Part shown: positions 11,564 through 17,681 of the stretch, in pieces
Layout of the letters: every line of letters starts with the position of its first letter
How positions within the stretch are numbered: the stretch's first letter is position 1
Assembly (NCBI RefSeq): GCF_913055775.1
Contig: NZ_CAJXJX010000004.1
Coordinates: 1-40,677, forward strand
Length of the DNA stretch: 40,677 nucleotides
Origin: an uncultured Demequina sp.
GTDB taxonomy: Bacteria > Actinomycetota > Actinomycetes > Actinomycetales > Demequinaceae
Direction: 5' to 3'
Notes under the pieces: model-generated
The model's input: only the letters and a program-made list of their open reading frames with translations
What the model was told of the DNA's origin: nothing
Database searches by the model: none
Position numbers and translations under genes: made by a program

Positions 11564-13921
<2,358 letters not shown>

Positions 13922-14084: not shown

Positions 14085-14756
14085 TCAGTAGGAGTCCGTC
14101 GACTCTGTGCCATCCAAGACCGCGCGGGTGCCGGACAGTCCGAGGCGCGTGGCGCCGGCCTCGATCATCGCGAGCGCATCCTCGGCCGTACGGATCCCGC
14201 CCGAGGCCTTCACGCCCAGGCGTCCGCCCACGGTCTCGGCCATGAGGCGCACCGCCTCGACCGACGCACCGCCGGCGCCGTGGAAGCCCGTGGAGGTCTT
14301 CACGAAGTCCGCGCCCGCGGCCTCCGCAGCACGGCACGCACCCACGATCGCGTCGTCGCTGAGCGCGGCGGATTCGATGATGACCTTGAGGATCTTGCCT
14401 GCGGGCACGGCCGCGCGCACCGCGGCGATGTCCGCCTCGACGTCCGCGAAGCGCCCCGCGTTGGCCGCGGCGACGTCGATCACCATGTCGATCTCGTCCG
14501 CGCCCTGCTCGATCGACAGCGCGGCCTCGGCGGCCTTTACCGACGAGTGGTGCTTGCCCGACGGGAACCCGCACACCGTCGCGACCGCGAGACCCTCGGG
14601 GGTCACGACGGGCAGCATCGACGGCGACACACACACGGAGAACACCCCCAGGTCTGCGCCCTCGGCGATCAGCGCGGCGACGTCCTCGGGCGTCGACTCG
14701 GGCTTGAGCAGCGTGTGGTCGACGTACTTGGCGAGCTCGGCGCGGGACAGGGTCAT
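14085..14756 (-). CDS. deoC: Deoxyribose-phosphate aldolase
   Basis: A 223-residue class I aldolase that cleaves 2-deoxyribose-5-phosphate into glyceraldehyde-3-phosphate and acetaldehyde, the last step of deoxynucleoside catabolism. The TIM barrel shows [10 protein letters not shown] at the start, [25 protein letters not shown], the Schiff-base Lys153 in FVKTSTGFH, and Lys183 in GVKASGGIR, which tunes the active site. Length is normal. ATG 14756 is preceded by a strong AGGAGG. A TAGGCT hexamer on the minus strand at 14790-14795 may be its -10. It is separated from the other deo/add genes by the oppositely oriented exporter gene. Confidence 0.95.
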
Positions 14757-14888: not shown

Positions 14889-14917
14889 TTGCCACCGCAT
14901 CGGCCGTGTGCGATCCT
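14889..14917 (+). promoter_or_regulatory. Candidate promoter of the guanidine exporter
   Basis: TTGCCA (14889-14894), a 17-base spacer and GATCCT (14912-14917) would start a transcript around 14924, just ahead of the riboswitch at 14937. The -10 box is poor. A GCATCGGCC motif copy (14897) occupies the spacer. Confidence 0.4.
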
Positions 14918-14936
14918 CGAAGCAGAGCCCACCCGG

Positions 14937-14990
14937 CTCCCGGACGAGGTGACGTACCCGGCGCATGCGACAAGACGTCTCGAACGGGAG
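14937..14990 (+). promoter_or_regulatory. Guanidine-III (ykkC-III) riboswitch with ribosome-site switch
   Basis: The stretch 14940-14979 matches the ykkC-III consensus as in Thermobifida: CCGGACGAGGTG, then TACCCGG, then ACAAGACG. The expected H-type pseudoknot can be drawn: CCGG 14940-14943 pairs with CCGG 14958-14961, and GACGT 14951-14955 pairs with ACGTC 14975-14979. Downstream, CGGGAG (14985-14990) is the ribosome site of the exporter ATG. CTCCCG (14937-14942) is its perfect complement and overlaps the first P1 strand. Ligand-stabilised P1 would therefore free the ribosome site. The class is known; this switching scheme is my inference. Confidence 0.9.
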
Positions 14991-14996
14991 CACGTC

Positions 14997-15311
14997 ATGG
15001 CGTGGGTCATTCTTCTCATCTCCGGCATTCTCGAGGCCGTCTGGGCGACCGCGCTCGGCCGCATCGACGGCTGGGCCAAGCCCCTGCCGATCATCGTGTT
15101 CGGCACCGCGCTGGCGCTCAGCATGGGCGGCCTGGGCCTCGCGATGAAGTCGCTGCCCATCGGCACGGCCTATGCGGTGTGGGTGGGCGTGGGAGCCGCG
15201 CTCACCGTCGGCTACGCGATGTGGTCCGGTGCGGAGTCCGTCTCGATCGCCAAGGTCGCGCTGATCCTGGGCATCGTGGGCTGCGTCGTGGGCCTCAAGC
15301 TGCTGCACTGA
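14997..15311 (+). CDS. gdx: SMR-family guanidinium exporter (Gdx/SugE type)
   Basis: A 104-residue four-helix small multidrug resistance protein that works as an antiparallel dimer, exchanging substrate for protons. The catalytic Glu13 is in [12 protein letters not shown]. Gly10, Trp16, Ala17, Ser42, Tyr59, Ala60, Trp62 and Lys101 are present; several of these mark the guanidinium-exporting Gdx subtype rather than the Emr polyaromatic-cation subtype. The guanidine-III riboswitch directly upstream gives independent support for guanidine as the substrate. The ribosome site GGGAG is six bases before the ATG. It is a single-gene unit inserted between deoC and add and ends at a strong hairpin. Confidence 0.93.
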
Positions 15312-15324
15312 CGCACACATGCGA

Positions 15325-15355
15325 ACGGCCGGGCCCCGGCGCGGGGCCCGGCCGT
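15325..15355. terminator. Strong GC hairpin between gdx and add
   Basis: ACGGCCGGGCCCC (15325-15337) pairs perfectly with GGGGCCCGGCCGT (15343-15355) around a five-base loop. It lies between the convergent ends of gdx and add. There is no clear T-run on either side, so it may work as a bidirectional GC-type terminator. Confidence 0.65.
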
Positions 15356-15371: not shown

Positions 15372-16439
15372 CTACAGCTCGATGCCGTAGCCCTCGAGGA
15401 TCAGCTCGGCGAGGTCGCCGCGCTCCTCGTAGGGCAGGAACGCGCCCCACGCGGCGGCCAGGGTCGCCTCGAGCAGGTCCTCCGCGGTCCAGCCGGCCTC
15501 GACCAGCGCAGCGAACTCCCCGGACATCGACACGCCGGACACGAGCCGGTTGTCGGTGTTGACCGTCACGGCGAAGCCCAGGTCGCGCAGCGCGTGCATG
15601 GGGTGGTCCTCGATCGACGGCGCCGCGGCGGTCTGCACGTTCGAGGTCGGGCAGCACTCGAGCGGAATCTGCTGGTCGAGCGCGTGGCGGGCGATCAGCC
15701 CGAGCACCGGCTCATCGGAGTCGAAGCCCTTGATGTCCTCGTGGATGCGCACACCGTGGCCCAGGCGGCGAGCGCCGTGGAACAGGGCGTCGGACACGGA
15801 GTCCGCGCCGTCCGCCTCGCCGGCGTGAATGGTCACGGGCAGATGCGCGGCTCGGAGGGCGGCGAAGGCGGCGGCGTGGTTCGAGGCCGGGAAGCCCAGC
15901 TCGGGGCCGGCGATGTCGAAGCCCACGCAGCACTTGTCCCGGTTCACGATCGCGAGCGCGGCGATCTCCTCCGAACGATCCAGGTGGCGCATCGCGTCGA
16001 GCAGTGCGCCCACGCGGATGCCGTTGCCGGCCTCGGCCGCCTCGGCGATGCCCTCCTCGATGCCGGCCTGCACGGCCTCGACGACCTCCTGCAGGTCCAG
16101 CCCGCCGGCGACGTGCTGCTCGGGCGCGTAGCGCAGCTCGGCGTAGATGACACCGTCCGCCGCGAGGTCCACCACAGCCTCGCGCGCGACCCGGCGCAGG
16201 TTGTCTGCGGTCTGCATGACCGCGGTGGTGTGGGCGAAGGCCTCGAGGTAGCGGACCAGGTCGCCGGAATTGGCGTTCGTGGAGAAGATGGTCGCGAGCT
16301 CGTCGGGGTCGGTCGAGGGCAGCTCGTGGCCGATCTCCGCCGCGAGCTCGATCAGCGTCGACGGGCGCAGGCCGCCGTCGAGGTGATCGTGCAGGAGGAC
16401 CTTGGGCAGGGCGACGATCTCGTCGTGAGTGAGGGTCAT
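15372..16439 (-). CDS. add: Adenosine deaminase
   Basis: A 355-residue zinc hydrolase that converts (deoxy)adenosine to (deoxy)inosine, which the nearby nucleoside phosphorylase can cleave. Motifs are HDHLDGG near residue 17 (two zinc His), AELRYAPEQH, the catalytic THAGEAD-type segment ITHAGE in the form TIHAGEADGADSV, LGHGVRIHED with a zinc-site His, ECCPTSNVQT, and VNTDNR with the last metal Asp. Length is normal. ATG 16439 has TAGCCT six bases upstream and no ribosome site. The 222-base gap to the upstream gene of the same strand holds a hairpin, so add probably has its own promoter. Confidence 0.94.
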   Translation of the reverse strand: MTLTHDEIVALPKVLLHDHLDGGLRPSTLIELAAEIGHELPSTDPDELATIFSTNANSGDLVRYLEAFAHTTAVMQTADNLRRVAREAVVDLAADGVIYAELRYAPEQHVAGGLDLQEVVEAVQAGIEEGIAEAAEAGNGIRVGALLDAMRHLDRSEEIAALAIVNRDKCCVGFDIAGPELGFPASNHAAAFAALRAAHLPVTIHAGEADGADSVSDALFHGARRLGHGVRIHEDIKGFDSDEPVLGLIARHALDQQIPLECCPTSNVQTAAAPSIEDHPMHALRDLGFAVTVNTDNRLVSGVSMSGEFAALVEAGWTAEDLLEATLAAAWGAFLPYEERGDLAELILEGYGIEL

Positions 16440-16661: not shown

Positions 16662-17681
16662 TCAGCGGTCCTCGCGCTTGCGCTGCGGCAGGATCATCCA
16701 GCACGCCCGCGACCACGCGCCATACGCGGGTTCCTTGGGCCCCGCCCCGTACAGCCGCGCCTCGCCGAGCGGCAGCACGCGCCCGGAACCGGGCTCGTAG
16801 ACCGCGAACCCGTGCGACGTGCGCCCCACCAGCAGCACCACGTGCCGCGGCACCACGTCCGACAGTCCGCCGCTCGAGTCGCCGCCGGTGTACAGCGGCA
16901 CCGGGATACCGTCCCGCAAGGAGGCCGATGCGTGGGCGATGGCCGCCGCGACCACGTCCCGGTTGGCGTCGTCCAGGATCGCGCCACGGAACCTCAGCCC
17001 CGCGAAGCGCGTCTCGTCGTCCACGCGCCACGGCGGCGTGCCCAGCGCGCGCGGCCAGGGCAGCGGTCCGAGCCCGCCTCGCGTGGTCCGCGCGTGCAGC
17101 ACCCGCTGAAGCGCGCGCCACCGCTCCTCGAGCGTGCGGGCCTCGGGGTGACGCACGAGGACCTCCAGCACCTCGGGAGGGCTGTAGTCGCCGAATCGCC
17201 GGCCGGTCATCAGCCACGCGGTCACGAGCGGGTCACCCATCATCAGCATCACAGCCATCGACGCCGCGCCGCACGTGGTCTCATCGATCTGCTGGGCTCG
17301 CATGCCGCCGTAGCGCAGCGCCCCCATGCCCGAGCCCGCAGGGTGGCGGATCACCGCTCGATCGCGAGCGTTCAGGCCCGCCCACGCAGCCGCGAGGCCC
17401 GCGACGGCGGCGACAGGAGCGCCGGACGCAGCCGCGCGGCGGATCACCTCGGCGTCCTCTCCCACCTCGGACAGCGCCGTGGTGAGGGCTTTCGCATCGG
17501 CGGCCGATGCTGTGGCCAGCCGGCGCGACGTGGCCCTCGCGAAGACGGTGTCGGTCGAGGAGCCGCCGCGCTGCGCGCGGCCGGCGGCATGGGCGGCGCT
17601 GTAGGGCGTGGACCAACTGCCGCGCAGGCCGATCGCACGGCCGATGCGGGAGGCGACGGAGGTCAGCGTCCAGCCGGGCAT
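16662..17681 (-). CDS. Predicted C39-like (papain-fold) cysteine peptidase, function unknown
   Basis: A 339-residue protein that I do not recognise as a named gene. The N-terminal ~125 residues are Ala-rich, helical and low in hydrophobicity, with no signal peptide. Then QQIDETTCGAASMAVMLM gives a candidate oxyanion Gln (130/131) and nucleophile Cys137. PRHVVLLVG has His280, and FAVYEPGSG follows, where C39-like peptidases normally have Asp-Pro or Asn-Pro; here it is Glu296-Pro. The order Q-C-H-(D/N)P is that of bacteriocin-processing and related C39 folds. The gene follows deoA by 23 bases, so it is probably the last gene of the nucleoside operon. No ribosome site is visible before ATG 17681. 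Confidence 0.65.
   Translation of the reverse strand: MPGWTLTSVASRIGRAIGLRGSWSTPYSAAHAAGRAQRGGSSTDTVFARATSRRLATASAADAKALTTALSEVGEDAEVIRRAAASGAPVAAVAGLAAAWAGLNARDRAVIRHPAGSGMGALRYGGMRAQQIDETTCGAASMAVMLMMGDPLVTAWLMTGRRFGDYSPPEVLEVLVRHPEARTLEERWRALQRVLHARTTRGGLGPLPWPRALGTPPWRVDDETRFAGLRFRGAILDDANRDVVAAAIAHASASLRDGIPVPLYTGGDSSGGLSDVVPRHVVLLVGRTSHGFAVYEPGSGRVLPLGEARLYGAGPKEPAYGAWSRACWMILPQRKREDR

Follow-up and report, generated by a model that had tools for sequence, protein, structure and literature searches.

A 40,677-nt stretch of DNA from an uncultured Demequina species (hereafter, the window) contains an SMR-family gene preceded by a ykkC-III RNA element, and this unit lies between deoC (14085–14756, minus strand) and add (15372–16439, minus strand). 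The locus raises two questions: what the RNA controls, and by which structural change; and whether its position links guanidine handling to purine breakdown, as an initial annotation had speculated.

A Guanidine-III aptamer precedes the SMR gene

A search of the window against Rfam matched the Guanidine-III (ykkC-III) covariance model RF01763 to positions 14922–14984 of the plus strand over the full model (1 to 67), with 45.9 bits against a cut-off of 36 (E = 1.5e-6), so that the check proposed for this class assignment came out above the threshold. The whole window held no second Rfam match above cut-off, and the 2.71-Mb genome held no further RF01763 match at E ≤ 0.001. The score is the fifth lowest among 26 Demequina matches, which range from 44.7 to 64.1 bits.

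The Rfam model begins with an upstream hairpin (GAGCC/GGCTC, 14925–14939, plus strand), for which 87.7% of cells are paired across the 26 Demequina leaders and changes on both sides occur at two of the five pairs. The pseudoknot helix (P1 of the crystal structure; 14940–14961), formed by CCGG at 14940–14943 and CCGG at 14958–14961, is paired and invariant in all 26 leaders and is thus conserved without covariation. P2 (14949–14981) pairs 14949–14955 with 14975–14981; six of the seven Rfam-model pairs are formed, and pair 13-40 is a U·U mismatch (14950/14980). The pseudoknot had been described as complete in both stems and as spanning 14940–14979. This description holds for the CCGG helix but not for P2 with its mismatch, and the interval captures the H-type pseudoknot core, but P2 reaches 14981 and Rfam adds the 14925–14939 hairpin and ends at 14984. 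When the guanidine contacts C6, G7, and G17 (PDB 5NWQ numbering, PMC5696562) were mapped by hand, they corresponded to C14945, G14946, and G14954, and all are present.

Among unique Demequina aptamers of fixed pattern, all 11 with a 1-nt linker are broken at pair 13-40, all 4 with a 2-nt linker have a full P2, and all 3 with a 3-nt linker are broken at pair 15. The 1-nt linker form was seen once outside Demequina, with the same P2 break. From these patterns, the 1-nt-linker Demequina aptamers would have a complete GGU third strand and, after it, a P2 of 5 bp.

Manual reading of the sequence 5′ of the aptamer revealed a promoter-like −35 element, TTGCCA (14889–14894, plus strand), located 17 nt 5′ of a putative −10, and an extended −10-like element, TGCGATCCT (14909–14917, plus strand), that fits the loose pattern TGN[GTA]ANNNT. 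The order before the aptamer is TTGCCA, 17 nt, and GATCCT with TG upstream. TTGCC was found upstream in 19 of 26 Demequina leaders and the TGN[GTA]ANNNT pattern in 24 (it is absent in L017 and L025), at distances within a 6-nt range. A generic scan found no promoter. Transcription would start at about 14922.

The gene product has the signature of a Gdx exporter

The SMR gene, here called gdx (14997–15311, plus strand), encodes a 104–amino acid predicted guanidinium exporter. The protein matches Pfam Multi_Drug_Res (PF00893) with 56.9 bits (cut-off, 23.7) and two PDB sequences at E ≤ 0.001, 6wk5 (E = 1.1e-13, residues 1 to 101 matched) and 8vxu, which we take to be Gdx-Clo and a Gdx-Clo variant, respectively. 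All five Gdx binding-site residues that were checked (E13, W16, S42, Y59, and W62) are present, as is K101, presumably a Gdx mark; Glu13, Trp16, and Lys101 had been pointed out from the sequence and are indeed there. The six residues show no variation in an alignment of 19 of the 26 Demequina proteins. The score against the NCBIfam SugE equivalog NF008512 (72.5 bits) is below the cut-off of 126; that model describes SugE proper, an identity that we do not claim.

The Shine-Dalgarno sequence GGGAG (14986–14990, plus strand) begins 1 nt past the Rfam match and lies 6 nt 5′ of the ATG; 12 nt separate the aptamer end (14984) from the start codon (14997). On the other side of the gene, a strong hairpin at 15325–15355 lies between the convergent gdx and add genes and is a possible terminator. 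It is GC-rich and has a 14-bp stem; the fold covered the 60 nt that follow gdx and came to −40.5 kcal/mol for that stretch. It has no T-run, the generic scan made no call at this site, and such a hairpin is not evident in every relative.

The aptamer-gdx unit is common in the class

In a sample of the family, Guanidine-III RNA was found in 26 of 47 genomes, and gdx of at least 59% identity in the same 26; one of these genomes (G043) has an additional SMR protein of 37% identity. A second, weak match in G032, which at 27.7 bits falls short of the cut-off, was taken as chance; its locus, L027, has no gdx, deoC, or add. In a sample of the class, RF01763 matched 175 of 394 genomes at E ≤ 0.001, 168 of them over cut-off, which shows how common Guanidine-III is in the class.

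Among the 80 nearest named SMR loci, 75 matched an aptamer model derived from the 26 Demequina leaders; 4 of the 80 are Demequina species already used in building it. The weakest model matches were at L125, L073, L077, and L123. When Rfam was run on 11 loci, all five model-found ones among them were confirmed, and there was no match in L066, L092, L098, L110, L111, and L027. Conversely, a recognizable gdx adjoins the aptamer in 115 of 130 class loci chosen by aptamer; the 15 loci without a gdx match starting near the N terminus were set aside. The riboswitch class, the exporter type, and their coupling, all proposed in the initial annotation, are thus supported by Rfam, by Pfam, by the PDB match, by the residues, and by the 75 of 80 loci.

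We also searched for other guanidine responses. The genome contains no Guanidine-I or Guanidine-II RNA at E ≤ 0.001 and no match to the urea-carboxylase family over cut-off; weaker matches to that family, also present in each of the 14 control genomes, are consistent with biotin-carboxylase relatives. In these searches, export is therefore the only guanidine response seen.

A candidate OFF hairpin pairs the 3′ strand of P2 with the ribosome-binding region

Inspection of the leader suggested a candidate OFF hairpin (14974–14996, plus strand) in which GACGTCTC (14974–14981) would pair with GAG (14988–14990) and ACGTC (14992–14996). In RNA terms, GACGUCUC, made up of the P2 3′ strand and one further base, can form pairs with both the Shine-Dalgarno GAG and the ACGUC that precedes the AUG. 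The energy of the hairpin is −11.0 kcal/mol (z = −3.1), and 1 of 200 shuffled sequences was as good.

To estimate the fit between the two partner segments, the energies of own pairs were compared with those of permuted partners. Own pairs were lower in 26 Demequina leaders (−6.14 versus −5.21, p = 0.0002) and in 62 other leaders (−7.13 versus −6.34, p = 0.0006). In the class sample, 84 of the 115 loci had a spacer no longer than 24 nt and a start codon that could be used, and 79 leaders, none of them Demequina, remained after removal of duplicates; 29 loci with longer spacers, of which 13 also have GUC, and 2 with an unusable start were left out. The own mean energy was −8.33, compared to −7.19 for permuted partners, −7.62 for partners permuted within family, and −7.83 within genus, and none of 1500 permutations was as low as the own pairs in any of the three schemes. 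A reversed-strand control, permuted over all rows of the class sample, gave no such fit (p = 0.91). In a separate test on grouped rows, a single row per genus gave a median p of 0.032 (33 groups), and the signal was lost when each family was reduced to one row (median p = 0.23, 16 groups); at least two Rhodococcus entered the taxonomic groupings as Gloeocapsa. Several species occur in both the class sample and the named set, which are therefore not fully independent. Motif filters left 88 rows in each of the tests on the Demequina and the other leaders and 66 rows in the grouped test.

The bases next to the start codon point in the same direction. In the class sample, 41 of 79 leaders carry GUC immediately 5′ of the start codon. 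Among named loci, it precedes the start in 29 of 64 gdx leaders versus 22 of 618 background open reading frames (Shine-Dalgarno–led, at least 150 codons, from the named loci), the latter being mechanical calls with uncertain starts. Within Demequina, GUC occurs in 8 of 26 gdx leaders and, among 75 starts of other genes defined by homology, in 7. Among class leaders with GUC, A at −4 was found in 5 of 9 with GACU versus 1 of 32 with GACG (Fisher test, 9e-4); in the named set, where 13 of the 80 loci were skipped for want of an exact CAAGAC motif close by, the numbers are 3 of 7 and 1 of 22. Base 4 of GAC(G/U) and base −4 thus appear to covary to some degree; since 12 of the 17 class GACU leaders come from one family, the number of independent covariation events is small.

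Single-sequence folds of the leader are not decisive, and their outcome shifts with length. The minimum-energy fold of the 109 nt from 14922 to 15030 contains the P2-3′ hairpin, the fold of 14922–14999 (78 nt, up to the AUG) prefers CUCCC on GGGAG, and that of 14940–14999 gives a third pairing. For the shorter leaders, the probability of CUCCC-type pairing was above 0.5 in 8 of 26 Demequina, the window included. When the aptamer was held and the pseudoknot strands of the window leader were kept free, the Shine-Dalgarno sequence was predicted to be unpaired only 21 to 54% of the time; this fold model thus does not yield a cleanly open ON state. CUCCC/GGGAG was also tried as a general OFF helix and was kept only as an alternative: its own-versus-permuted p was 0.075 for the 26 Demequina and 0.13 for the 62 others, and the pooled p of 0.0035 was discounted because relatedness can produce such a value.

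We give the P2-3′ hairpin an even chance of being the main OFF structure of short-spacer members. The wider proposal, which we consider equally open to being right or wrong, is that short-spacer actinobacterial Guanidine-III RNAs would share a common platform: the 3′ strand of P2 (GAC plus G/U) would re-pair with (C/A)GUC before the start and hide the Shine-Dalgarno sequence, so that ligand-stabilized P2 and start-codon sequestration would be mutually exclusive. In Demequina, the short P2 would free its last bases, and the subgroup with fully paired P2 would use CUCCC/GGGAG. The useful addition is a concrete, mutable prediction of the competing structure. The passages of PMC5696562 considered here name no competing helix, and the candidate helix may already be drawn in other papers on the class.

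Of the 115 class leaders, 29 have long spacers (over 24 nt from P2 to the start), 27 of them from two families (f25 and f27); their platform may differ.

The deoC-gdx-add order is seen only in Demequina

The gdx unit is convergent with add and divergent from deoC. Its single placement between the two genes, remarked on in the initial annotation, is evident in the window and recurs at 23 of the 26 Demequina gdx loci, with deoC (at least 80% identity) on one side and add on the other. The three exceptions are a locus that reaches a contig edge before add (L007), one with a different deoC (37% identity; L023), and one in which gdx is located elsewhere (L002, genome G041). The order was also compared in relatives, and it was seen only in the genus: deoC or add was found near gdx at none of 76 named loci outside Demequina, with 5 kb inspected on each side for most.

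We next considered 20 add regions without gdx at that site, counting in G041 and two sister-genus genomes. In 15 of the 20, add and deoC are adjacent and co-directional, with matched ends 5 to 173 bp apart; of the others, one has a 1.4-kb gap and four lack a close deoC (contig end or otherwise). The sister genera are represented by one region of the adjacent type (L045, 5 bp) and one without deoC within the stretch (L046). These adjacencies suggest that an add-deoC operon is probably ancestral and that the gdx unit was later placed inside it with reversed orientation. In a tree built from add plus deoC (45 rows, two of them under half filled), the presence of gdx at the site needs six changes when G041 is scored as lacking it because its copy is elsewhere. 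The gene is missing in two outgroup rows and in the two deepest Demequina rows and is present in all 14 members of the window's clade. A single gain followed by several losses would explain this most simply, on a tree that cannot separate gain from loss. The seat of gdx thus looks like a lineage-specific insertion into the add-deoC operon within Demequina.

Several further features of the region were observed. A different deoC (35 to 37% identity) lies near gdx or add at L023 (1989–2636), L064 (3855–4502), and L042 (1704–2351), which represent two Demequina genomes, G028 (L023 and L064) and G038; this suggests replacement by another copy. Beside intact gdx units, add is split over two frames in G023 and fragmented in G011 (L010, 1915–2981; L021, 2045–3061); the completeness of G011 is only 50%, and faulty assembly is thus possible.

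Between deoA and add, the window encodes an unannotated 339–amino acid protein (16662–17681, minus strand), a relative of which occurs near add in 15 of the 20 add regions without gdx there. It has no match in Pfam, NCBIfam, or PADLOC, and Cys137 (TCGAA) and His280 (RHVVL) are invariant in eight aligned sequences. Its AlphaFold model (pLDDT 80) resembled PDB entries only weakly (best E = 0.064); papain-like cysteine peptidases and phytochelatin synthase made up most of these matches. Between a phosphomutase gene and deoC lies a gene for a short UvrA-like protein (11564–13921, minus strand; 785 amino acids; 686 bits to TIGR00630, under the cut-off of 729.8), which also matches PADLOC mad3 with 231 bits; this may be plain UvrA likeness. 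The neighbor of deoC is the phosphomutase gene in many relatives and the UvrA-like gene in L029, L035, and L037.

DISCUSSION

Our analysis makes it very likely that a standard Guanidine-III riboswitch turns on translation of a Gdx-type guanidinium/proton exporter and that its seat between deoC and add reflects an insertion within Demequina. The aptamer, the pocket bases, the exporter signature, the spacing, and the comparative support for the P2-3′ hairpin were obtained here; the ligand response, the start site, and the direction of switching are inferred, the direction being taken from the class. Guanidine-III is described as a translational ON switch (PMC12186494, PMC5696562); the functional mechanisms of Guanidine-II and Guanidine-III are called less well established in PMC5696562. 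In the proposed course of events, transcription would begin at the aptamer or just 5′ of it. Without guanidine, the 3′ strand of P2 would pair with the Shine-Dalgarno sequence and with ACGUC before the AUG, or, alternatively, the C-rich CUCCC beside the pseudoknot would pair with GGGAG; either pairing would hide the ribosome site. Guanidine would stabilize the pseudoknot and P2, the ribosome site would be freed, and Gdx would be made.

The order of genes could instead be functional, with guanidine handling coupled to nucleoside breakdown. In favor of this, 23 of 26 Demequina carriers retain the order, across gdx proteins that differ by 28 to 41% from that of the window. Yet gdx is transcribed in the opposite direction from its own promoter-like site, a hairpin separates it from add, and add and deoC adjoin each other without it in 15 of 20 other regions. 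As for chemistry, section 7 of PMC12186494 gives three bacterial guanidine-forming routes (ethylene-forming enzyme, NapI, and guanylurea hydrolase), none of which starts from purines. The absence of deoC and add from all 76 loci outside Demequina removes the case for a purine link, and we regard such coupling as very improbable. The deoC-gdx-add placement probably carries no metabolic meaning, and this neighborhood of apparent meaning is best read as an accident of lineage.

Nor is the SMR protein likely to be a broad quaternary-ammonium exporter that just happens to sit 3′ of the riboswitch. It does match Qac models, at 40.5 bits or lower and far below all their cut-offs, but its only PDB matches at E ≤ 0.001 are the presumed Gdx-Clo and its variant. 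Moreover, W16, which is invariant in the aligned proteins, is conserved in Gdx according to PMC7695847, and proteins of the Qac subtype have Gly or Ala at its position; we consider a Qac-type function hardly credible. Somewhat more weight, while still unlikely, is due to a switch that acts mainly on mRNA stability or transcription rather than on translation start. Guanidine-III additionally blocks RNase E scanning according to PMC12186494, and the spacers of over 24 nt leave room for other platforms. However, the 12 nt between aptamer and start codon would be too few for a terminator, the distance from ACAAGACG to the start is short in most named loci bearing the exact motif, and there is both a fit and partial covariation between P2 and the bases 5′ of the start. 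Effects on stability or transcription and on translation may also be additive. We retain translational control of gdx as the main reading.

The unit can be compared with several known systems. With the Thermobifida fusca Guanidine-III RNA (RF01763, PDB 5NWQ) it shares the H-type pseudoknot, the CCGG/CCGG helix, the C6/G7/G17 contacts, the ACAAGACG strand, and the location of the aptamer upstream of the ribosome site. Unlike in T. fusca, the Demequina P2 has a U·U mismatch in the Rfam register, which we read as a GGU third strand with a 5-bp P2, and only 1 nt separates the end of the Rfam match from the Shine-Dalgarno sequence, compared to 16 nt in T. fusca (PMC5696562). The exporter resembles Gdx-Clo (described in PMC7695847) over residues 1 to 101, including E13, W16, S42, Y59, W62, and K101, but belongs to an actinobacterial branch in which many hydrophobic positions and loops differ. 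As in Rhodococcus, Nocardioides, Mycobacterium, Arthrobacter, and Microbacterium, the aptamer lies directly 5′ of gdx, whereas the units of those genera have other neighbors, with neither deoC nor add in the stretch. The Guanidine-III-gdx unit of the window is thus an ordinary one, well explained by the established behavior of its class, to which the candidate OFF helix is an addition.
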